DNA of 64,000 nucleotides from Selenomonas ruminantium subsp. ruminantium ATCC 12561 (GTDB lineage Bacteria; Bacillota; Negativicutes; Selenomonadales; Selenomonadaceae), in the NCBI RefSeq assembly GCF_000424065.1, contig NZ_AUJE01000019.1, positions 1-64,000 of the forward strand. The letters run 5' to 3'. Within the stretch, counting starts at the first letter, position 1. Each line of letters starts with the position of its first letter. Below are positions 6,262-55,722 of this stretch, in pieces. The notes beneath the pieces were generated by a model. It was not told the DNA's origin. It worked only from the letters and a program-made list of their open reading frames with translations, and searched no databases. The position numbers and the translations under genes were made by a program.

Positions 6262-7706
6262 AGGGCAAAATCTCCCCTTTCCGCCCATAAGTCGATGCAG
6301 GCACGCCAAAAAGCCTGTCCATATGCCAGCCTGTCACACAAAGGCGAATTTTCCATTTCGCCGCGCAGATTCTCCTGCGTAGCAAGTAAAAACGGCCGGT
6401 CAGCGGCAAGCTGCAGGGTAATTTTCACATAATCGCGGGGGGTATCCGCAATCCATTCCTCATAACCTGCTGCGGTCAGCAGACTTGCCCCAAAACGGGC
6501 ACTATGATGATTTCCCCGCAGCGTAACCACCGGCACGCCCATATAAAGTGCTGTGGCCGTCATTGCGCCGCCATTGTACGGGAAAGTATCCAGCATGATG
6601 TCCACTTCCTGATAATTAGCCAAATAATTGTCCGTTCCTAAACGCACCTCTATCCGCTCCATGGGTAGGCCGGCCTTTTCCAGCCGTTTTTCCACAGCCA
6701 GCCGCCGTTCAGGCAGACGCGTGGTATCCTGTACGAGCAGCCGGGCACCGGGCGCAAGTTCCAATATTTCCCGCCACAAAATCAAAACCTCTGTATTGAT
6801 TTTCATGGCATTTTGAAACGCGCCAAAAACCAGCGGCATATCGCTGCCCCGCCTGAGCCTTTTGCTTTTCTGCATGGCTTCATTAGGCATAAAGCAAAAG
6901 GCATGCGGCAATTTGATAAGTTTCTCGCGAAAATAATCCGCAGCAGCCGCATCTGGGTCAAGAACATTATCTGTCAACAGACCATCAACCGCTTCGAGCC
7001 CTGTAGTGTCAAAATAACCAATTGCCGAAAGCTGCACCGGAGCAGGCTTTTTCGCCAATACCATAAGGGTCAGGCCACCTGCTGTATGGCCGGATAAATC
7101 CACCAGTATATCAATTTCGTCCCAACGAATGGCCTCAGCCATCTCCACCAGATTTTTTCCGGCCAGACAGCGGTAAATCAGGCCGCTCCCCTGCAGACGA
7201 TGCGTAAAACTATCTTCCTCGTCCTCCAGCGCATAAAGATACGTACTGGCATAGCGCACGTCCAGCCCCGTCACCAATGCCTCATAAAACCGCGCAGCTG
7301 CGCTGTCACAGAAATCGCTGGCAATAAAGCCGATACGCAGGCGGCTATGAGGCACTGCCTTACGAACAGGCAGACATTCTTCTTCCCGATAAAGCTCCTG
7401 ATAGAATTTATGCTGCTGCGCTAAATCCTCAGCACTGAGTCCCGGCAAATAATGCAGGGCAAAGAGGTAATTGGAATAATGCTCGCGCTGGCTGCGCAGA
7501 TATTTATCACATTGCGCGGCGTTGCTATAAGCTGCTGCCGCCCCTTCCGGATCAGCCAAATCGTGAAACACTGCTCCATAAAGCTCATGCAGCTGCCATT
7601 CTTCCTCCGCTGGTATCTGCCCCCTTAGAGACTCCAATTTTTCTCTGGCCAGCTGGGTTTTTCCCCGCTGCAAAAGAGCGGTTATTTCCTGCCACTGCGC
7701 CTCCAT
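6258..7706 (-). CDS. O-GlcNAc transferase-like glycosyltransferase (SPINDLY/GT41-type C-terminal domain)
   Basis: A 482-residue protein. Residues 1-110 are helical and TPR-like. From about residue 120 it matches the bacterial OGT/SPY domain: RLRIGFIASDFCDSAAARF, DILVDLSGHTAGG, PVQLSAIGYFDTTG and, late, DIMLDTFPYNGGAMTATALY with GVPVVTLRG. Such proteins transfer sugars to Ser/Thr of proteins; in selenomonads related genes are often discussed with flagellin glycosylation, which is inference here since no flagellar genes are in the window. It is coupled by ATGA overlap to the methyltransferase-like gene. Confidence 0.85.
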   Translation of the reverse strand: MEAQWQEITALLQRGKTQLAREKLESLRGQIPAEEEWQLHELYGAVFHDLADPEGAAAAYSNAAQCDKYLRSQREHYSNYLFALHYLPGLSAEDLAQQHKFYQELYREEECLPVRKAVPHSRLRIGFIASDFCDSAAARFYEALVTGLDVRYASTYLYALEDEEDSFTHRLQGSGLIYRCLAGKNLVEMAEAIRWDEIDILVDLSGHTAGGLTLMVLAKKPAPVQLSAIGYFDTTGLEAVDGLLTDNVLDPDAAAADYFREKLIKLPHAFCFMPNEAMQKSKRLRRGSDMPLVFGAFQNAMKINTEVLILWREILELAPGARLLVQDTTRLPERRLAVEKRLEKAGLPMERIEVRLGTDNYLANYQEVDIMLDTFPYNGGAMTATALYMGVPVVTLRGNHHSARFGASLLTAAGYEEWIADTPRDYVKITLQLAADRPFLLATQENLRGEMENSPLCDRLAYGQAFWRACIDLWAERGDFAL

Positions 7707-9337: not shown

Positions 9338-10254
9338 ATCCGCACCTCAAAACGCTGTTCGTCTTCTTTCGGAGCAGGGCGGGGCTTTACCGGTGGCTTA
9401 GGCTTTGCCTTTTTCTCCGGAATCTGAGCGGTCAACTGTTCGCGGTACTGTCTTGCCGCATGGGGCGGCGGGCTGACGTTTACCGGTATACGCCCTGCCT
9501 TTTGCAAGCGTTCTTTTGCTTCAGCGCGTGCCTGCCGCATTTCCTGGCGCAGCGCTGTTTCTTCATCACGGGCCAGCTTGGCTAATACTTCGTCCGGCGT
9601 CAGGCCGCGAAGTTCGGCAAAAGTTTCTACCTGTTCGCGATTGCGGGGGGATTTGCGCGGTAAGGCTTTGTTGCTGTTTTTGATGCCTTTTTCCGGCAGC
9701 GGCACGGGTGCTGCTGCATCGTCGATATCCGCAAAACTTAGCACACCTTTTTTCCCCTCCTTACGCGCCATGATTTTGCGAATGCCGAACCAGACCACCA
9801 CACTCATAAATACGAGTACCGCCCCCCAAAAAGCAGCACCATGGGAGGCAAATTGCTCCCAGCCATTATGCGGATTTTCGGTCTGCGTCTGTGATTGAGT
9901 CTGCGCCTTGGCATCTTCCATGGCCTGCTGGCGGGGATTTTCTTCATTCAGACCATTCTGGGCAGGGATAACCTGTACAGAACTTGCCTGATTTTCCTGG
10001 GACGCGCCACCACTGGCATCTACTGGCTTATCAGGCTTTGCCGGTGTTTCCGGCTTAGCCTGGGTTGTTTTGGATAGAGCTCCGTCCCCACGGGCTACTG
10101 CCTGCCGTGCCTGCGCTTCTGCCTGCTCATCGCTGGTCTGCTGCTTGTCGTGGGGGACATTCGTTTCCTGCGTGGTGCCGCCATCCTTCAAGGTTACGCC
10201 CGGTACACTGGGCGGCGTAGGGGGTGTGGGGGCAGTCGGAGCCTTTATCGCCAT
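9334..10254 (-). CDS. Proline-rich single-pass membrane protein, unknown function
   Basis: 306 residues in three parts: a Pro/Thr-rich then Gln/Ala-rich, low-complexity N-terminal region (1-135); one membrane span near residues 139-160 (GAAFWGAVLVFMSVVVWFGI); and a basic, Lys/Arg/Glu-rich helical C-terminal region (about 210-270) ending in a Pro/Lys-rich tail. There is no signal peptide. Topology looks like a linker or scaffold protein such as those found near secretion, flagellar or TonB-like systems, but I do not recognise it. GGGAGGG precedes ATG 10254. It is coupled to the ferredoxin gene. Confidence 0.55.
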   Translation of the reverse strand: MAIKAPTAPTPPTPPSVPGVTLKDGGTTQETNVPHDKQQTSDEQAEAQARQAVARGDGALSKTTQAKPETPAKPDKPVDASGGASQENQASSVQVIPAQNGLNEENPRQQAMEDAKAQTQSQTQTENPHNGWEQFASHGAAFWGAVLVFMSVVVWFGIRKIMARKEGKKGVLSFADIDDAAAPVPLPEKGIKNSNKALPRKSPRNREQVETFAELRGLTPDEVLAKLARDEETALRQEMRQARAEAKERLQKAGRIPVNVSPPPHAARQYREQLTAQIPEKKAKPKPPVKPRPAPKEDEQRFEVRI

Positions 10255-45481: not shown

Positions 45482-46545
45482 TACGCTCTCCTTAAAAACT
45501 CACGAATTTGCTCTTCCATCACTTTAGCGATATTCTCGCCTTTCTGATATGCTTTTGCCCACACAACCGTTTCCCGCAAGGCATCTTCGATGTGCCAGCG
45601 CGGCTGCCACTGCAGGCGGCTCTTTATATTGGAACAATCCAGCTTGAGGAAATTGGCCTCATGCGGGCCTTCCACGCTGACGTTTTTCCAGCTGATATCA
45701 TCCCCCCACTGGTGGCAGAAGATATCCACCAGTTTACCAGTAGTTACGCAGTCACACTCATCCGGGCCTACATTATACCAATCTGCATACTTGCTATCTT
45801 CATACTGTGCCTGTGTAATTAACAGATACGCATAAAGCGGTTCCAGTACATGTTGGTATGGACGAGTGGAATAAGGATTACGCACTTCAATATCCTGTCC
45901 GGCAAAAGCTGCCCGTATGCAATCCGGCACAATGCGGTTCACGGAAAAATCACCGCCACCAATCACATTACCTGCTCTAGCCGTAGAAATTGCACAGCGT
46001 CCATTAGCAAAGAAACTCTTCTTGTAACTATGGGTTACGAGCTCTGAACAACTCTTGCTATTGGAATACGGATCGTAGCCATCCAAAGGTTCATTTTCCC
46101 GGTAGCCCCAAGACCATTCCTTATTCTCATAGACTTTATCTGTCGTAACATTAAGGAAAGATTTAACACTTTGCGTCTGACGCACACACTCCAAGATATT
46201 AACTGTTCCCATTACATTGGTTTCGTAAGTCAATACTGGCTCTTTATAGCTTTCAATAACCAGCGGCTGTGCGGCTAAATGCAACACAATTTCCGGCTGA
46301 ACATCCCGAAATACCTGCAACAATTTTTCCTGATCACGGATATCGCCGATTCTGGAGTGAATACCTGCTTCCACTCCGGATTCGACAAATACTTTTCCGC
46401 CTTCTGCTGTAGGGGACTCCAGTGCATAACCAGTAACCTGCGCACCAAACATGGTCAGCATCTTGCACAGCCACATTCCCTTGAAACCTGTATGTCCGGT
46501 AACCAGTACCTTTTTCCCTTGATAAAAATTTGGATTTAATTTCAT
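45481..46545 (-). CDS. rfbG: CDP-glucose 4,6-dehydratase
   Basis: A 354-residue SDR enzyme: KVLVTGHTGFKGMWLCKMLT, IVLHLAAQPLVIESYKEPVL, NVTTDKVYENKEWSWGYREN and DPYSNSKSCSELVTHSYKKS (Tyr/Lys). ARAGNVIGGGDFSVNRIVPD and TRPYQHVLEPLYAYL complete the RfbG signature. It makes CDP-4-keto-6-deoxyglucose. ATGA overlap with rfbF; TAATG junction with rfbH. Confidence 0.95.
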   Translation of the reverse strand: MKLNPNFYQGKKVLVTGHTGFKGMWLCKMLTMFGAQVTGYALESPTAEGGKVFVESGVEAGIHSRIGDIRDQEKLLQVFRDVQPEIVLHLAAQPLVIESYKEPVLTYETNVMGTVNILECVRQTQSVKSFLNVTTDKVYENKEWSWGYRENEPLDGYDPYSNSKSCSELVTHSYKKSFFANGRCAISTARAGNVIGGGDFSVNRIVPDCIRAAFAGQDIEVRNPYSTRPYQHVLEPLYAYLLITQAQYEDSKYADWYNVGPDECDCVTTGKLVDIFCHQWGDDISWKNVSVEGPHEANFLKLDCSNIKSRLQWQPRWHIEDALRETVVWAKAYQKGENIAKVMEEQIREFLRRA

Positions 46546-47324
46546 TTATCCCACACTTTCCAAGGCGCCTTGCCTGCCAGCCACATTTCTTCCAACTTTT
46601 GCTTATCCCGCAGAGTGTCCATACACTGCCAGAAACCTTTGTGTTTATAAGCCATGATTTCACCATCATCAGCGAGGTGCTCCATGGGGTCACGCTCAAA
46701 CATCACGTTAGACTTAATATAATCGAAAATCTTTGGCTCTAGTACCATATACCCGCCATTGATATAGCCCACATCGTCCCGGCTCTTTTCCCGAAATGAC
46801 CGGACATTATTCCCATTCAAATCCAAGATGCCAAAACGTCCTTCCGGTTTCACCGCCGTCAATGTGCAGGCCTTGCCATGGGATTTGTGGAACTCTACCA
46901 AAGCTTTCAAATCCACATCACAGACACCATCACCATAGGTCATCAGGAAAGTTTCATCACCAATATAATCCTGAATTTGCTTAATACGCCATCCAGTCAA
47001 AGAATCCAGTCCTGTATCCACTACTGTCACTTTCCACGGCTCAAAATCCGTAGAAATAATCCCCCGATGCTCCCTCTTGCCATCCACACGAAAATCAAAC
47101 GATATATTGCTGGCCTGCAGGAAGTAATGCGCAAAATAATTTTTGATATATTCCTGTTTATATCCTGCACAGATAATAAAATCATCAAAACCATAGTGCA
47201 GATATTCCTTCATAATATGCCAAAGAATTGGCTTGCCACCAATATCAATCATTGGTTTCGGCTTAAACTGTGATTCCTCGCTTATTCTTGTACCAAACCC
47301 GCCGGCTAACAACACTACTTTCAT
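46542..47324 (-). CDS. rfbF: Glucose-1-phosphate cytidylyltransferase
   Basis: 260 residues. KVVLLAGGFGTRISEESQFK, KPMIDIGGKPILWHIMKEYL, FLMTYGDGVCDVDLKALVEF and GYINGGYMVLEPKIFDYI are the RfbF nucleotidyltransferase motifs. It forms CDP-glucose from CTP and glucose-1-phosphate, opening the dideoxyhexose route. ATG 47324 is preferred to 47363 because KVVLLAGG starts directly there. A fragment of a second copy lies about 1.1 kb upstream. Confidence 0.95.
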   Translation of the reverse strand: MKVVLLAGGFGTRISEESQFKPKPMIDIGGKPILWHIMKEYLHYGFDDFIICAGYKQEYIKNYFAHYFLQASNISFDFRVDGKREHRGIISTDFEPWKVTVVDTGLDSLTGWRIKQIQDYIGDETFLMTYGDGVCDVDLKALVEFHKSHGKACTLTAVKPEGRFGILDLNGNNVRSFREKSRDDVGYINGGYMVLEPKIFDYIKSNVMFERDPMEHLADDGEIMAYKHKGFWQCMDTLRDKQKLEEMWLAGKAPWKVWDK

Positions 47325-47347
47325 ATTTATCGAATTCCCCTTAGAAC

Positions 47348-48211
47348 TTAATTTTCCTTCCACTTACTAGTTCTCTTCTCCATATTTAATAACAAATCAT
47401 ATCGAATATTTTCCGGTAATGATAGCGCATAATAAAATTGTGGCAATCCTCTTGTAATAAGTTCATGCATCGTATTTGTCCAAGTCTTATGCTCTGCAAA
47501 TGAAATATAAATCATTGGCTTTGCAAATAATTTTACATGACCATCATTTTCAAAAATTTCATTCCATAAAGTACCTATATATTGATGCATTGTTCCACAA
47601 AAATCATTTCTTGATGAAAAAGAAATTGAATTCTTCACTCTTGTCATATTTACTAATATACCACTGTAATATAGCAACAATGGCAATATTCCTATAGTTT
47701 TACTTTCATCAGAAAATAATTTGAAACACTCGTCAGCATTTATAATTCCTTCATCAATAAAATATACCGGTTTTATTTTCCTTATATATTTTTTTATTTT
47801 GTACCTAATAATTGTTTGAATATCCTCTCGTGAAGGAGCAGGGAAAGCATTAATTATTCCAAAGTCGAAATCATCTACACATCCATTAATTATTGTACCT
47901 AAACTATCTGCTTGTAAATAATCATCATCTGCTAATAACAAAGCATATGGTGTTGTGCAATATTGATAAACTAAATCATGATTTCTATCTATACCAATGT
48001 CGCTTTCATTATAGAAGCAATGTATATTATCATACTTATTTCTCCATCGCTCTACCACAATTCTACTTTCCACATCTTCTGGCGAATTGGAAGATATCAC
48101 AACCTCAACGTTACTAGCCTCTTCACTATTATTCTCAAATATACTGAATAATAACTTATCCAATCCTCGAGCTCTTTTATAAGTAGGCACAAAAATTGTC
48201 AGTTTCTTCAT
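47348..48211 (-). CDS. GT2-type glycosyltransferase
   Basis: 287 residues. LTIFVPTYKRARGLDKLLFS, VEVVISSNSPEDVES and YALLLADDDYLQADSLGTII mark a GT-A fold like the abequosyl/tyvelosyl transferase group (RfbV-like GT2), which lies next to CDP-dideoxyhexose genes in other bacteria; the assignment is by position. ATG 48211 follows GGGAGG. It is markedly AT-rich compared with rfbF-G-H, suggesting separate acquisition. Confidence 0.8.
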   Translation of the reverse strand: MKKLTIFVPTYKRARGLDKLLFSIFENNSEEASNVEVVISSNSPEDVESRIVVERWRNKYDNIHCFYNESDIGIDRNHDLVYQYCTTPYALLLADDDYLQADSLGTIINGCVDDFDFGIINAFPAPSREDIQTIIRYKIKKYIRKIKPVYFIDEGIINADECFKLFSDESKTIGILPLLLYYSGILVNMTRVKNSISFSSRNDFCGTMHQYIGTLWNEIFENDGHVKLFAKPMIYISFAEHKTWTNTMHELITRGLPQFYYALSLPENIRYDLLLNMEKRTSKWKEN

Positions 48212-48417
48212 ATTTCCTCCCTGCAAAATTTCGTCATATCTGCCAGCCCAACAGAACAATTCCTACTAACATGCAAATCACCATAGAAAAAAGCATATCA
48301 GACACATCAAGTATAGACCTCAGGCACTAAACCAACGAAAAAACGGTTAGTAGAAAAGCAATACTCAAATACATTTGCAACTGAAAAATTCCCACACCAT
48401 TCAAGCATACGGCAATG

Positions 48418-48565
48418 TATTCCCAATTGTAACTGGCACAAATGATAAAATCGTCAAATCCATAGTGCAGATATTCCTTCATGATGTACCAAAGAATCGG
48501 CCTACCAACAATATCAATCATCGATTTCTACTTAAATTGTGATTACTCGCTTATTCGAACACCAC
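48418..48565 (-). pseudogene. rfbF remnant (about 50 codons)
   Basis: The minus strand encodes MIDIVGRPILWYIMKEYLHY and GFDDFIICASYNWEYI, nearly identical to residues 22-59 of intact rfbF (MIDIGGKPILWHIMKEYLHY). DNA similarity continues beyond that methionine to about codon 8 of rfbF, but with a stop codon where the intact gene has a Phe-Lys-Pro segment. It has no 5' end, no 3' two-thirds and no binding site. The rest of 48212-48723 is AT-rich with nothing recognisable. Confidence 0.85.
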
Positions 48566-48723
48566 CTTTCTAGAAAGCTTTTCATTTCTCCATCGCATTA
48601 TCTTATAAATATTATTAATCACTAATATACAGATATTACCACAGTTTAATTTTTATTATTTTCAGTAATTATAACAGCCTATTTTGAGGTTATATGTTGG
48701 AATACAAATACTTAATACAGGTT

Positions 48724-49593
48724 TCATATAGACATCACTCCTTCATTTCTTCCGCACCATCGGCATACTTTATTGCTACAAGTATGTTTTCTATCAACTT
48801 CTCTCTTTCCATGATGCAAATGAAAATTAAAAATATCGTAAAGACCGTGCCTTCTCAGAAACCGCTTAAATCGATTGTGAAATTTATTTCTTTTTTTATT
48901 CTCTCGAAGAATGACCTCATTCAATCCATACCTCTCCCAAACACGATTTTGCTCTTGCCAGCGCAACTCTTCATCATTGCTAGCCCCCTGTGTACTAAAG
49001 AAAGCAATTGGAATATCCTTGAATCGTACCTTTATATTTTCATCATAATAACAACTGAGGAAAAAATTATAGTCTGCTGCCACCTTAAACGAAGTATCAA
49101 ATAAACGAGTTGCGATTATATCACGTTTTGCGAACTCTCCTTGATGATGAATTAAATTTCTTCCATCAAAATTATCAGCCGCAGCGCCCATAGGTCCGAA
49201 ATATCCTTCTGTTTTTTTGTTTTCATCAACGCACCATACTCCTGCACATAACAGATCTATATCTTCATGCGATAAAATATCCACCACACGGGAAATTACG
49301 GTATAATCATATAGACTATCATCTGAACCTAAAAAGTATATATAGTCTCCTGTCGCCATAGATATCCCTTTGTTGAAAGCATCATAAATTCCATTATCTG
49401 GTTCACTTATATAACGAATTGTATCATTATACAATGCTTTGTATTTTTTTATTATATCTATCGTATTATCAGTAGATGCACCATCCACAAGGATATATTC
49501 TATATCAGTATACGATTGGTTAACTACGCTCGATATTGTTTGTTCCAACGTAGATGCTGAATTATATGTAGCAGTTATTACTGTTATTTTCAT
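48724..49593 (-). CDS. GT2 family glycosyltransferase
   Basis: 289 residues. KITVITATYNSASTLEQTIS, YILVDGASTDNTIDIIKKYK, GDYIYFLGSDDSLYDYTVIS and HHQGEFAKRDIIATRLFDTS give a GT-A fold of the same subgroup as the gene at 40352. The last about 60 residues are basic and Cys/His-rich (RKHTCSNKVCRWCGRNEG), an unusual tail that may be a recent frame extension. AAGGAG before ATG 49593. AT-rich; between the rfbF remnant and the decayed ptu locus. Confidence 0.85.
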   Translation of the reverse strand: MKITVITATYNSASTLEQTISSVVNQSYTDIEYILVDGASTDNTIDIIKKYKALYNDTIRYISEPDNGIYDAFNKGISMATGDYIYFLGSDDSLYDYTVISRVVDILSHEDIDLLCAGVWCVDENKKTEGYFGPMGAAADNFDGRNLIHHQGEFAKRDIIATRLFDTSFKVAADYNFFLSCYYDENIKVRFKDIPIAFFSTQGASNDEELRWQEQNRVWERYGLNEVILRENKKRNKFHNRFKRFLRRHGLYDIFNFHLHHGKREVDRKHTCSNKVCRWCGRNEGVMSI

Positions 49594-49651: not shown

Positions 49652-50287
49652 TCAACCTATCCTTCTTTGCAAGTAATAAATTATAATCCCTACATAAGGT
49701 ATATATTCACCATTTTTATCCAATGAGCTACATTGCCTCAAGCATTTAATAAGAAGTTCCCTGCTTGCATTCGTTTTGCCTAATTTATGATAAAGCTGCC
49801 GCTGAAAGCTTTTTAATGCCTCACGTCTATTATCTATTAAATATTCTCTTTCATCATTTAAATTAAGTGTTTCATCTAAATCTCTTTGATAGGCTGGTAT
49901 TGACGATTTTATATGTCCATTTCTAGTATATGATATCGTTTCAATATCACTTGCACTCTGAGGATTTACTTTTATTAATGTATCTTTCTTATGAGAATCA
50001 CAAGTTTGTCTACTATAAGGCCGTCCTTCCCCGCCCTTACATACAGCTAACAAATTGTTATAATCTAATTCATTTTCGGTATTTCGTGGAACGTAATGCT
50101 CTATCTTTACATTTTGCAAATCTGAAATTTTCGTCATGCAATAAGCACATAAAAATCCTTACTCTTGAAGCAATGCTTTTCTCAACAAGCTCTTTATATC
50201 GGTTGGCATATCGTCAAAGTGTGCTTTATCGGAATTTACATATTCCATGAATTTTTCTGGCTGGTGTTGCTTTTTTATCAAAATCAT
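49652..50287 (-). pseudogene. ptuB: PtuB-like HNH nuclease of a Septu defence system, nonsense mutation
   Basis: From ATG 50287 the frame runs 42 codons to an in-frame TAA at 50161-50159, then continues without further stops to 49652 (211 codon positions). Across the stop the protein reads LLQE-stop-GFLCAYC, where relatives of the retron-Ec78/Septu HNH family have EQGYLCAYC, so a CAA or CAG to TAA change is likely. Downstream motifs are KIEHYVPRN (HNH His), LDYNNLLAVCKGGEG and TCDSHKKDTL. It lies 8 bp after ptuA. Translation restart at ATG 50137 would lose the CAYC half of the zinc/HNH site. Confidence 0.8.
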
Positions 50288-50295
50288 ATCTGCAC

Positions 50296-51579
50296 CTACA
50301 CCGACTCTAAGGCAATAGCGATTTTGGCATCAACTACATCTTGGTCATTACTTCCCAGTTGTTTTTCTATTTCTGTTACAATCTCCTTAGCCTTGGAGAC
50401 ATTTCCTTCATCCAACACATTATTAAATTCTTTTAGTTTATTCAATATATCTTGTGGACGAATTTCAGTTTCCATAAGTTCATGAATCACTGCTGTTATA
50501 TTTCTTCCATAGGAGTAATTTTGCGGCACATCAACAGTATTATTCTTTATCAATCGTATATTTTCCTTATACACATTGACTAACACACTTGGTGCATTGG
50601 TCGTAACGATAAATTGTACATTTGGGAAAATACGTGTTAAGTCTTGAATGATTCTTTTTTGCCATGAAGGATGTAAATGCATATCCACTTCATCAATCAT
50701 GACTATGCCATCTGTTTTTTTACGACATCTCCTAATAAATGTGGATTTAATATCGCCATTCTATAAGCTATATCAGCCACCATATTGATAACCGTTTTTA
50801 TACCATCACTCAACAATCTTACAGGCAGATATTTTATATAACCATCATAATAATGTATTTTTAATTCCAACTCGTCTTTTTTCACACTAAAACGAAACTG
50901 TACTGTTTGAGCTCTATTATCTAATCCTAGATAACAATCCGCCACAGCCTGTTCTACAGCTTCTAACTCTGGTATCTGCAGACCATCTTGTAAACGAACA
51001 TAAGTCATCTTGGAAAACCACTGTAACATCATTTTTTCATTCGTATTGATATCTAAGCAATCCCGATACCCACGCAGCCTTTAACCTAGCGCATTAGAAT
51101 TTCCTTGTCTCCGCATCAATCTATTTTGTTTTCTTGCCCATAATCTACCTGTTCCATAATAGGCAAGCAATGGCAAAATCACATCGCGTTCTCCGCGTCG
51201 TACCTTATTTTGTATATTCTTCGCATAATCTATTATCATTTTTGATTCTTTAATCGTTGTCCGCCCGTTTTCACTATTTAAGTTCCTTTGCCATGTCAAT
51301 GCATTATCACGAGCGGTTTCTGCTGTTGCTATAACACTTGCAGGATATTGTGATTGTACCTTCTTCAAACATACGATATCGGACATCATCTGTATGTATT
51401 GCATTTGACCTTATACCATCCATCCCCGCCAAAAAACTTCCCAACGCTATAGAAATTGCATCCAGTATTGACGATTTACCTGCACCATTTACCCCTATCA
51501 ATACTGTATAATTGGGCTCAAAATTTATTAAAACATTTTCAAAGCAACGAAATTTTTTAATTGTAGGGATTTTAGCCAC
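50296..51579 (-). pseudogene. ptuA: PtuA-like AAA ATPase of a Septu defence system, multiply disrupted
   Basis: Four collinear pieces make one SMC/ABC-like ATPase: Walker A GVNGAGKSS (residues 29-37 of the first piece), LAYYGTGRLW, RGYRDCLDINTNEKMMLQWF, and Walker B GIVMIDEVDMHLHPSWQKR with TTNAPSVLVN. Breaks: a frameshift near 51360 (QYPASVIATAE is in the next frame), an in-frame TAA at 51083-51081 with open frame on both sides, and a one-base deletion frameshift in a run of seven A (50715-50721 on the plus strand as T). Start GTG 51579 is 12 bases from AAAGGAGG. PtuA pairs with PtuB for anti-phage DNA or RNA degradation; as read, no functional protein is made. Confidence 0.82.
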
Positions 51580-51597
51580 ATTTTCTACATACCTCCT

Positions 51598-52605
51598 TTA
51601 GTTATGCATGATTTTTTCTATATGCTGTTTCAACATATCAAATGTAATACCATTAACGCACTCTTGATGTAAACATTTCTTTTCCGTATCCGAATCACAA
51701 GGTGCACATTCCTTAGCTAGCGTTACTACTCGGCAATATTTCTTAGGCGCCCATGTATAATAACTGCCTCTAGTAAATAAACAAACTGTTTCTTTCTTCA
51801 ACGCACACGCTATATGCAGTGGAGCACTATTAGTTGTTATAACGAATTGCGCATTCTGAAAAAGCACCATCATCTCACTTAAGCTAGTTCGACCACATAA
51901 ATTATGTATATTACTATACCTATTAAATATCTGTAAACACTCTTCTATTTTGGAATCTGTAAAATAAATATCACATTTGTCTTCTAAAAATTCTACCGCT
52001 TCCTTTATCAACGATAACGGAATATTTTTTTCAGTTTTCCCAAAAGGAGCAATAACTATATATTTTTTTCCTAAGTCTACCCCTTTTACAGATAACAACT
52101 GTTCTATATTTCTCCTGCTTTCTTCATCAGGCTGAGCTACTTCACAGACACCATCATTACTTAAATCTACTCCTAAAGCCAGTGAAATCTGTTCCGTAAT
52201 AAAGTCAGCACGATACTTTGTATCCCGAAAATCGTGCATAGGCAGTTCCTGATGGAACAAGCCTGTTCCTCGATATTTTTCTTTACATACACCAGCCCGA
52301 TGCGGCACGCGCAGGAGCTGCGCCATTCTGGCTAATTGTGGCTGCCAGGATGTAAAAATCACATAATCCTGCTTGCGAAAATGCAAAGCAGGACGAAAGT
52401 GACCAAGGAACTTGCCTTTGGCAATACCATAAACATGGTCAATATAGGGCAAACCAGCAATAATATCCAAATTATGTGCATACGAAACCACGCTCAATAC
52501 GCAATCTGGATAAAGTTCCTTCAAACGCTTAAAGGCCGGCGTGCACATAATCAGGTCGCCCATCCCTGGGCAGTTTTCAATCAATATATATTTTCCATTC
52601 AGCAT
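51598..52605 (-). CDS. GT9 (heptosyltransferase-like) glycosyltransferase
   Basis: 335 residues. KYILIENCPGMGDLIMCTPA, CVLSVVSYAHNLDIIAG, IVIAPFGKTEKNIPLSLIKE, FVITTNSAPLHIACALKKET and a C-terminal Cys group CAPCDSDTEKKCLHQEC fit GT9. It probably adds heptose or a similar sugar to the core oligosaccharide. ATG 52605 follows GAGGGAG and overlaps the end of the GT4 gene by 7 bp. Confidence 0.85.
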   Translation of the reverse strand: MLNGKYILIENCPGMGDLIMCTPAFKRLKELYPDCVLSVVSYAHNLDIIAGLPYIDHVYGIAKGKFLGHFRPALHFRKQDYVIFTSWQPQLARMAQLLRVPHRAGVCKEKYRGTGLFHQELPMHDFRDTKYRADFITEQISLALGVDLSNDGVCEVAQPDEESRRNIEQLLSVKGVDLGKKYIVIAPFGKTEKNIPLSLIKEAVEFLEDKCDIYFTDSKIEECLQIFNRYSNIHNLCGRTSLSEMMVLFQNAQFVITTNSAPLHIACALKKETVCLFTRGSYYTWAPKKYCRVVTLAKECAPCDSDTEKKCLHQECVNGITFDMLKQHIEKIMHN

Positions 52606-53771
52606 ATTGTCTCCCTCAACAAGTTTTCCCACTGATTCCAAATACTATTTGCATCATAAGCTTTCATTGATTCACGAGCAGCCTTGCCATACTGCACACG
52701 CAGCGCCTTATTTTGCATAAGCTTACGCAGCGCATCTGCTAAAGGCTTATCCCCATCCTCACAAAGGATGCCTGTAACATTATCCCGTATCAGCTCATTA
52801 ACCGCTACACAATTCTTATAGCCCATAACAGGCAGTCCCATACTCATCGCTTCGGTAAGTGACATTCCCCACCCTTCATAAGCACTGGGGAAAACAAATA
52901 TATCACCTGTACGCAATACCGATTCTACATCATGCGTTGTTCCCATAAATCTTATCCGGTCATGCAGGTTCGCTTTATCTATCTTCGCCTGCATCGTTTT
53001 CATATACGATTTTTTTCCGCCGCCTCCCCATAATTCTACATCCCATTGAGGAAATTCTGCAGCCAGTTCAATAAACGCATCAATTAACAAATGCGGGCGC
53101 TTATGATTTTTCACCATGCGTCCGATAAATATAATTTTATATCGCTCTTTCAATACCGATAAATCCACAGGAGTTTCATACTGTGGCACTACATTGCCAA
53201 TCACTTTCACCCGTAAATGAGGATAACGATTGATAAGAGGCTTTATAAAGGAAGGAACCAGTACTTGATGTGCTGTGCTGTGCTCGATAGCCGGCAATTC
53301 ATCTACAGGATAGGTATGGAAATAATCCTCAGGACTGCCATGAGACATGGTTATCACAGGAATTTTTGTTTTCATATCACAGATAAGAATTTTACTGGCT
53401 GTAGGATGAAACGCGACAATGATATCTGGAGAAAATTTCTGCAGTATATCCTGCACTGCCCCTAATAGATATTTCGTATGAAATTCGTCATTGACACTTC
53501 TCCCCTTGCGAATATCCACAGCCTTCAAGAGTTCACGCTTTATCTTCATGGACAGGGGAAACAACACATCCTTGCCATTATAATGACGCAAATTATACGA
53601 TTTCACTTTATCACTGATAGGATAAAAAAAATCGCCTTGTCGATCATCACTGTATGCCACCGCAACTTGATGACCGCGATTCGTCATTTCATTAGCAAAA
53701 GCAGTCAGCACTTTGGCTACGCCGCCGGTATCGTTTATCATTTTCGTAAAATTAGCTAGTAATATTTTCAT
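52599..53771 (-). CDS. GT4 family glycosyltransferase
   Basis: 390 residues, GT-B fold. The N-terminal half begins ILLANFTKMINDTGGVAKVL; the donor half has IIFIGRMVKNHKRPHLLIDA, RIRFMGTTHDVESVLRTGDI and the E-x7-E segment PSAYEGWGMSLTEAMSMGLP. It resembles core or O-antigen transferases of the WaaG/RfaG type. The specific sugar is unknown. Within a run of co-directional transferase genes. Confidence 0.9.
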   Translation of the reverse strand: MKILLANFTKMINDTGGVAKVLTAFANEMTNRGHQVAVAYSDDRQGDFFYPISDKVKSYNLRHYNGKDVLFPLSMKIKRELLKAVDIRKGRSVNDEFHTKYLLGAVQDILQKFSPDIIVAFHPTASKILICDMKTKIPVITMSHGSPEDYFHTYPVDELPAIEHSTAHQVLVPSFIKPLINRYPHLRVKVIGNVVPQYETPVDLSVLKERYKIIFIGRMVKNHKRPHLLIDAFIELAAEFPQWDVELWGGGGKKSYMKTMQAKIDKANLHDRIRFMGTTHDVESVLRTGDIFVFPSAYEGWGMSLTEAMSMGLPVMGYKNCVAVNELIRDNVTGILCEDGDKPLADALRKLMQNKALRVQYGKAARESMKAYDANSIWNQWENLLRETIC

Positions 53772-54701: not shown

Positions 54702-55607
54702 TTACTTTAGCAATTTTGCTAAGTTCTGTGTCATGGTCATTTTTATTTCATCCATTAGGGCAAAACGCTTGCGATACACAGACCGCTTACGGGTAGGAAT
54801 TTCATCTTCGCTTTTACGCTCCTCTTGCAATGGCAATTCATAAAAGCGGGCATCTTCCGTCACATGTCCACCGGATTCTTCCCAAAAATCGCCGAAATTA
54901 GTTTTTAGTTTGCGGTCACTCCGCACATGGTTATTCGCATAATATCCATAATTCGATACCGCATAAATATGCTTCAGCCCTAATACCTCTGCAAAAATCC
55001 GTGTCACATAAAGTGTTAAATTTTTGGTGCGATATGCATGACACTGTTTAGTTACCTTCTTGACAACATCTTTAGCATTTTCCATATTAGGACCTTGCAT
55101 TGCCCCAATCCACAAAGACCACTCAGCATTTTTATCGCGTGCTATCCAAAATATCATCTGATAAAGGTTAGCGTAGTTATGCCCCCAGCGAAAGATAAGC
55201 GAGAGCATCCCCTCCTTGCGCTGCCCAGACTCAAAAGCCATATAGAGCCTCAGCGGTTCCTCTCCACGCAAATCCTCCCATAAAAGGAAGAATTCATGTG
55301 CCGCCATCTTCAAGGCACATTCTTCCTTAAATTTTTCCATTATAAAGGATACATGCTCTTTTACAATCGTTATGCGTTCCTGCATGGTAGATTTGTTGTA
55401 AAAAAATGCTCTTGTAACCTGCTCTAATGGATATTTATTATTACTTATAAACCGTCTATTTGTCTGATTATGCATAAAAAAATCGTAAAGCGGTTTCATC
55501 GACGCATAATGAATATATGCTCTTAACACAAACACTACCATACGACGTTGTTCCCGCCAATTGCTTAAATCATATATAGATTTACCGATATCTATAAAAT
55601 TTATCAT
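54702..55607 (-). CDS. DUF535 (VirK/YbjX) family protein
   Basis: About 301 residues. EECALKMAAHEFFLLWEDLR, GMLSLIFRWGHNYANLYQMI, WSLWIGAMQGPNMENAKDVV, and GLKHIYAVSNYGYYANNHVR with the following KTNFGDFWEESGG are DUF535 features. VirK/YbjX proteins are linked to outer-membrane or surface-polymer maintenance and antimicrobial-peptide resistance in enterics, without a known activity. ATG 55607 is favoured over 55643. First gene after the lldP terminator, so it may begin the transferase operon. Confidence 0.8.
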   Translation of the reverse strand: MINFIDIGKSIYDLSNWREQRRMVVFVLRAYIHYASMKPLYDFFMHNQTNRRFISNNKYPLEQVTRAFFYNKSTMQERITIVKEHVSFIMEKFKEECALKMAAHEFFLLWEDLRGEEPLRLYMAFESGQRKEGMLSLIFRWGHNYANLYQMIFWIARDKNAEWSLWIGAMQGPNMENAKDVVKKVTKQCHAYRTKNLTLYVTRIFAEVLGLKHIYAVSNYGYYANNHVRSDRKLKTNFGDFWEESGGHVTEDARFYELPLQEERKSEDEIPTRKRSVYRKRFALMDEIKMTMTQNLAKLLK

Positions 55608-55722
55608 TATATATAGTACACCTTTTTCACTAAAATTAATCACATCTAATACATTGCATACTGGCTATCATTTTAGCTCCCCATGCCTACTAACATTTAA
55701 TTATACTACATACTCAAAAAAA

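Follow-up and report, generated by a model that had tools for sequence, protein, structure and literature searches.

A surface-polysaccharide gene cluster of Selenomonas ruminantium subsp. ruminantium ATCC 12561 harbors two adjacent broken genes that encode an AAA ATPase and an HNH protein. This locus raises the question of what the pair is, whether it may still work, and how genes of this kind came to lie among genes for surface glycans. We analyzed it within a stretch of 64,000 nucleotides from contig NZ_AUJE01000019.1, referred to below as the window, and in relation to ptuA loci in other genomes of the class Negativicutes.

Identity of the gene pair

On the evidence of family models, gene order and catalytic motifs, we identify positions 49652-51581 of the minus strand as a broken Septu (PtuA-PtuB) pair. 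The first gene, a ptuA pseudogene for an AAA/ABC-type ATPase (50296-51581, minus strand), extends from an ATG at 51581-51579 to a TAG at 50298-50296. Directly downstream of this PtuA-family ATPase lies the PtuB-family HNH gene, a ptuB pseudogene (49652-50287, minus strand) with its ATG at 50287-50285 and its TGA at 49654-49652. The preliminary description had bounded the locus at 49652-51579 and had taken a GTG at 51579 as the start of ptuA. We replace this codon with the ATG at 51581-51579, the likely start, which is located 16 nt past the stop of the upstream glycosyltransferase family 9 gene and behind a Shine-Dalgarno-like AGGAGGT (51591-51597, minus strand) that directly follows that stop.

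The six open pieces of the locus were searched one by one against the PADLOC models. All six match Septu models, four of them PtuA (E-values 2.5e-24, 1.4e-20, 4.2e-35 and 2e-45) and two PtuB (1.1e-6 and 6.5e-50, the latter to PDLC00322), and the best-scoring model is a Septu model for every piece. Pfam recognizes AAA domains in the locus, as well as an HNH domain that is just significant (21.5 bits, with a cut-off of 21.4). The motifs of an AAA ATPase and an HNH protein reported in the preliminary description are present at the coordinates it gave, and the Septu gene order it proposed is upheld by the PADLOC PtuA1/PtuB1 models together with the catalytic motifs. In an alignment with relatives, the window copy of PtuA retains K, D, E, S and G at columns which we take to be those of the Walker A, Walker B and signature residues; the name H-loop used below is assigned on the same assumption. 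The window copy keeps 29 of the 30 near-invariant columns of PtuA (57 aligned relatives) and all 19 of PtuB (24 chosen relatives).

Among the relatives found, the closest is the intact pair of Selenomonas montiformis (locus L008, on the same contig as G007), the proteins of which match PDLC00298 (PtuA, 1.5e-143) and PDLC00322 (PtuB, 1.1e-67). The window locus is 60-75% identical to these proteins per stretch, the 75% stretch being 12 aa long, and the two DNA sequences form a single colinear 1.8-kb match at 68%. Known Septu of the PtuA1-PtuB1 kind (PDLC00298/PDLC00322; solved PtuA 8ee4) likewise have the ATPase followed by the HNH protein, with the same domains and motifs, whereas in the window copy both genes are broken, the H-loop histidine is lost and the pair lies inside a glycan cluster. 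Taken as an object, ptuAB of the window is unremarkable: the system is known, and the two genes are ordinary pseudogenes of it.

Lesions and age of the decay

Neither gene has an open frame: ptuA contains three frameshifts and one stop codon and ptuB one stop codon, which places five truncating events within 1.9 kb. When the intact S. montiformis proteins were used in tblastn, PtuA matched as four stretches in two frames and PtuB as one stretch through a stop. This comparison with the open frames of an intact relative upholds every break named in the preliminary description: the in-frame TAA of ptuA (51081-51083), the in-frame TAA of ptuB just ahead of the CAYC motif (50159-50161), and two frameshifts of ptuA, which had been placed near 51360 and at 50715-50721 and which we position at about 51352-51356 and, in an A-rich run, at 50718-50721. 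The damage extends beyond these. A further, N-terminal frameshift zone of ptuA had been missed (51549-51561), where two tblastn stretches in different frames overlap, and an Asn codon occupies the H-loop position (50596-50598), where all 57 aligned relatives have His. All of these positions are read on the minus strand. The loss of the histidine is read as decay.

One could suspect that the breaks arose in sequencing or assembly and that the living strain has an intact system, given that A-rich runs coincide with two of the three frameshifts, that the genome is a 67-contig draft, and that the lesions are known from one assembly of the strain. However, two of the breaks are stop codons, the middle frameshift lies outside a homopolymer, and an otherwise invariant histidine is changed as well. 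The rest of the 23-kb cluster is tiled by open frames of at least 150 aa, with no gap longer than 75 nt save 48260-48723; while open frames are no proof of full-length genes, errors would therefore need to crowd into ptuAB, and we consider this explanation improbable. Even less credible is expression by recoding, in which frameshifting at A-runs and readthrough of stops would yield low amounts of PtuA and PtuB: two of the breaks do lie within A-runs able to slip and conserved motifs flank the breaks, but all five truncating events, four of them in ptuA, would have to be suppressed, the H-loop histidine is gone, and the nearest relatives have open frames.

Judging from its sequence, then, ptuAB of the window is a pseudogene of the Septu family rather than a working member. 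Because ptuA carries three frameshifts, a stop codon and a lost H-loop histidine, and ptuB is stopped before its catalytic domain, no functional PtuA-PtuB complex should be made in this strain.

The inactivation had been described as recent, and for PtuA this is supported. Between the window and S. montiformis synonymous change in PtuA far exceeds amino-acid change (pN 0.196, pS 0.767, the latter saturated), and the distance to a third Selenomonas (G014) is practically the same for the window copy (dN 0.330) and the intact S. montiformis copy (dN 0.326). Since the window PtuA diverges no faster than its intact relative and has kept all but one of the conserved columns, the breaks look young relative to the divergence, and the decay of the locus looks recent. 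PtuB has changed somewhat faster (dN to G014 of 0.433, compared with 0.370 for S. montiformis), so some relaxed evolution of the window PtuB is possible.

Relation to retrons

The pair might also be the remnant of a type I-A retron (Ec78/Ec83-like) minus its reverse transcriptase. Four of the six pieces also match retron I-A models for the ATPase and the HNH protein, and the two systems come closest on 50296-50715, with 9.9e-42 for the retron model and 2e-45 for the top Septu model. In addition, the sole solved relatives of PtuB at E<=0.01 are Ec83 HNH chains. However, a Septu model is best not only for the six pieces but also for both intact S. montiformis proteins, and among solved structures S. 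montiformis PtuA is closest to PtuA 8ee4 (1.4e-61), with Ec83 at 4e-36. The preliminary description had stated that no reverse transcriptase adjoins the pair. This is borne out by the ORF lists of the window, which contain none, by a YxDD scan, which gave two hits only, in GDP-fucose-synthase-like and GT4-like genes, and by Rfam, which returned no match at gathering score in the 46-56 kb region. With Septu models best throughout and neither a reverse transcriptase nor msr-msd RNA seen, we reject a retron remnant, which has very little probability left.

The glycan cluster around ptuAB

The position of the pair inside a surface-polysaccharide cluster, as first described, is borne out by the ORF lists and by the Pfam domains of the neighbors. 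Apart from ptuAB, the cluster (32567-55643, minus strand) comprises 20 open frames on the same strand that are at least 150 aa long, among them CDP-sugar (rfbF/G/H-like), GDP-mannose/GDP-fucose-like and glycosyltransferase genes; these names were given by eye, except for three glycosyltransferases near ptuAB that were identified with Pfam, and the last gene (54702-55643) is unnamed. A glycosyltransferase family 9 gene lies immediately upstream of ptuA (51598-52641, minus strand, 16-nt gap) and a glycosyltransferase family 2 gene immediately downstream of ptuB (48724-49593, minus strand, 58-nt gap), so that ptuAB and its flanking glycosyltransferases are packed on one strand in an operon-like manner. 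A scan of 49.4-52.0 kb yielded 8 promoter-like sites, compared with a mean of 13.5 in shuffles, and 2 terminator-like sites, compared with 1.2. The GC content of ptuAB is 0.346, versus 0.508 in the first 32 kb of the window (1-32 kb).

Damaged DNA in the cluster is not limited to ptuAB. Positions 48260-48723 (minus strand) are stop-ridden remnant DNA in which 142 nt (48415-48556) copy a portion of an rfbF-like gene (46542-47363) at 82%, and we read this segment as a scar of rearrangement or recombination within the glycan cluster. The same segment also holds the start of a GT2-like frame. Around ptuAB itself there are short repeat pairs only, the rfbF scar being the sole long repeat. A search with the two flanking glycosyltransferases in 120 genomes each (E<=1e-60) found no empty site, the best relatives having 39% and 47% identity; because of this, arrival of ptuAB together with its neighbors and insertion into them are not separable.

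ptuA loci in the family Selenomonadaceae

The glycan-cluster setting goes beyond the single locus first described, as it recurs across the family. A PtuA profile search (E<=1e-45) of 380 genomes of the class matched 59 genomes, 18 of them in the family of the window (f1, Selenomonadaceae by L008), and all 18 loci were inspected. Judging by flanking genes, ptuA is found in or beside surface-glycan/LPS clusters at 12 of the 18 loci (the window, L008, L034, L035, L066, L067, L069, L074, L075, L076, L077 and L078), a judgement that combines ORFs, scripted matches and the Pfam domains of 30 chosen neighbors from 11 loci besides the window. Seven of these 30 neighbors match no family; the names of others include FdtA, DegT aminotransferase, Wzz, GT4, GT8 and GT9, sugar epimerases, O-antigen ligase, sulfatase and IspD-like cytidylyltransferase. 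Four of the twelve are weak cases: in L076 the sugar genes lie no nearer than 6-7 kb and a nucleotidyltransferase-type pair is closer; the single sugar gene of L066 is next to genes that look flagellar by eye; L035 is directly flanked by methyltransferase, SPASM and oxidoreductase genes and has its GT2 gene at 4.2 kb; and L069 has two GT8-type genes only. The remaining loci (L033, L068, L070, L071, L072 and L073) are located elsewhere, L033 with transposase-like genes nearby as judged by eye.

Of the 11 glycan-located loci besides the window, 9 have both called neighbors on the ptuA strand, counting as the left neighbor in L069 the front piece of ptuA itself; in L034 and L067 the same-strand count is blocked by an overlapping ORF call on the opposite strand that is probably spurious. 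Packing is tight in L035 (45 and 18 nt), L077 (51 and 26), L078 (22 and 34) and, on one side, L066 (24).

Two further observations concern other defense-related genes. In two Selenomonas genomes (L072 and L073) a different PtuAB lineage is found beside type I restriction-modification (hsdM-type) genes. In L076 a nucleotidyltransferase gene (7017-7496) and a nucleotidyltransferase-substrate-binding-type gene (9839-10123) lie one on each side of ptuAB, and this pair is possibly a split toxin-antitoxin or defense module.

Scripted neighbor test and controls

We then scored neighborhoods by script with 31 glycan reference proteins taken from the window and five loci, using a radius of 8.5 kb and leaving out the references that came from the locus being scored. 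With the window left out, 10 of the 17 family ptuA loci have at least one glycan gene within this distance and 7 of 17 have at least two. L077 scores 0, although its ptuAB has GT4 and IspD-like neighbors according to Pfam. A first version of the test, which kept own references, used 6.5 kb and included the window, gave 7 of 18 with at least two.

None of 20 hsdM loci from the same genomes has a glycan gene within 8.5 kb, these being chosen from 50 matches in 17 of the 18 genomes, with the two hsdM loci beside ptuA not among them. The count is likewise 0 of 24 for Septu loci elsewhere, a less sensitive control in that the references derive from Selenomonadaceae and several contigs are short. 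Random stretches, drawn from contigs already known, provide the weakest contrast: 4 of 20 have at least one glycan gene and 2 of 20 at least two. The latter two (L130 and L139) overlap glycan clusters that carry ptuAB, and the other two positive stretches have one phosphomannomutase-like gene each. In one-sided Fisher tests for at least one gene, p is 5.6e-5 with the hsdM loci as the contrast, 1.7e-5 with Septu elsewhere, 0.018 with all random stretches and 0.0038 without the two overlapping ones; for at least two genes the values are 0.0019 against hsdM, 0.034 against all random stretches and 0.0029 without the overlapping ones. All of these p values are optimistic because the loci are related.

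Other defense genes served as additional controls. An OLD-like TOPRIM gene had no match in the 18 genomes. AbiEii was found at 7 loci in 4 of the 18 genomes, and at 2 of these 7 loci a single glycan-type gene lies within 8.5 kb; therefore, Septu is not necessarily special in landing there, and the glycan clusters of Selenomonadaceae may be a wider landing zone for defense genes. The AbiEii genes of L160 and L161 have a GT2-like gene 4-7 kb away.

A second Negativicutes family (f15) carries PtuA in 38 of its 59 genomes. We fetched 24 of 39 places and scored 21, as L079 belongs to a different lineage and L084 and L091 were dropped from the scripted count, where the ORF choice had missed a PtuA that was later found there. 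A phosphomannomutase-like gene lies within 3 kb in 19 of the 21 (all but L098 and L100), usually accompanied by galU- and galE-like genes. Loci of the class outside the window's family with at least two glycan-type genes number 19 of 25 in the scripted count, and all 19 are in f15. This family was kept out of the tests because its loci look like a single location, next to housekeeping-type sugar genes, that has been inherited; if they were included, the contrast with Septu elsewhere would vanish. The f15 loci resemble the window in that the PtuA and PtuB models match (L083) and in having pgm/PMM-, galU- and galE-type sugar genes nearby, but they differ in that both frames are open in the fetched loci and in forming one clade (12 PtuA rows, support 100/100). 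The f15 ptuAB (L083-L105) may thus be a defense system inherited in place.

Repeated placement and decay on the PtuA tree

A tree was built from 58 PtuA rows. The window and S. montiformis are sisters in it (support 100/99), and large distances separate L075/L076, L077/L078, L034, L066 and the window group from one another. The glycan-located label, carried by 12 rows, requires 6 changes on this tree, at least 5 of which are forced by well-supported branches, in a count that neither 28 rows from other lineages nor the f15 loci beyond 12 of them entered. The label is more clustered than expected by chance, with 4 of 500 shuffles as low. Arrivals are not counted exactly because the changes may be gains or losses. 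Different Septu lineages are placed repeatedly in surface-glycan clusters of one family.

Decayed copies occur at 4 of the 18 loci of the family, including the window. In L069 ptuA is split by a stop and no PtuB was found; in L074 the PtuA match is without both ends and only the C-terminus of PtuB follows; and L073, which lies outside a glycan cluster, has a stop inside PtuB. With 3 of the 12 glycan-located loci and 1 of the 6 others affected, there is no clear difference. Three loci of other lineages were checked, of which L014 and L018 have stops in their PtuB matches and L009 showed no PtuB. Because decayed copies occur outside glycan clusters too, Septu decay is not peculiar to these clusters.

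Origin and meaning of the locus

In other Septu systems, an oligomeric assembly of the PtuA ATPase holds the PtuB HNH nuclease. By analogy, the intact Selenomonas pair should work as these do: infection would release nuclease activity on DNA or tRNA and thereby halt phage production. The Septu of E. coli B88 is reported to cut tRNA-Tyr in the variable loop, and mutating its Walker or HNH residues is reported to abolish defense (PMC13096335). The PtuAB of retron-Eco7 is described as depleting tRNA-Tyr, and the Septu of ATCC 25922 as acting on DNA (PMC11555353). The EcB88 and retron-Eco7 systems share the PtuA ATPase and PtuB HNH protein with the Selenomonas pair, which differs from retron-Eco7 in being without retron parts.

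We consider it highly probable, at roughly 90%, that ptuAB arrived as a passenger in a horizontally exchanged surface-polysaccharide cluster and was then recently inactivated. In this scenario the Septu operon would have come into a Selenomonas as part of an exchanged O-antigen-type operon, presumably as a module, and any transcript that now covers it, if it is co-transcribed with the glycan operon as the packing suggests, would carry it as dead sequence only.

A bolder proposal is that in Selenomonadaceae the surface-glycan genes and Septu make up the two layers of one anti-phage cassette, which would be exchanged as a whole in the form of serotype modules. The glycan operon would alter the phage receptor, the co-transcribed Septu would catch phages that still enter, and the lineage of the window would have kept the glycan layer and discarded a costly intracellular one. 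We regard this proposal as speculative and rather unlikely. Among the titles and abstracts listed in searches of the open-licence PMC literature, none describes Septu inside surface-glycan clusters.

A single dead Septu locus is routine; the repeated placement of different lineages in glycan clusters exceeds what we had expected. If this placement holds in wider sampling, the joint inheritance or regulation of receptor variation and intracellular immunity would become testable in this family, as would the question of why the intracellular part is sometimes lost.
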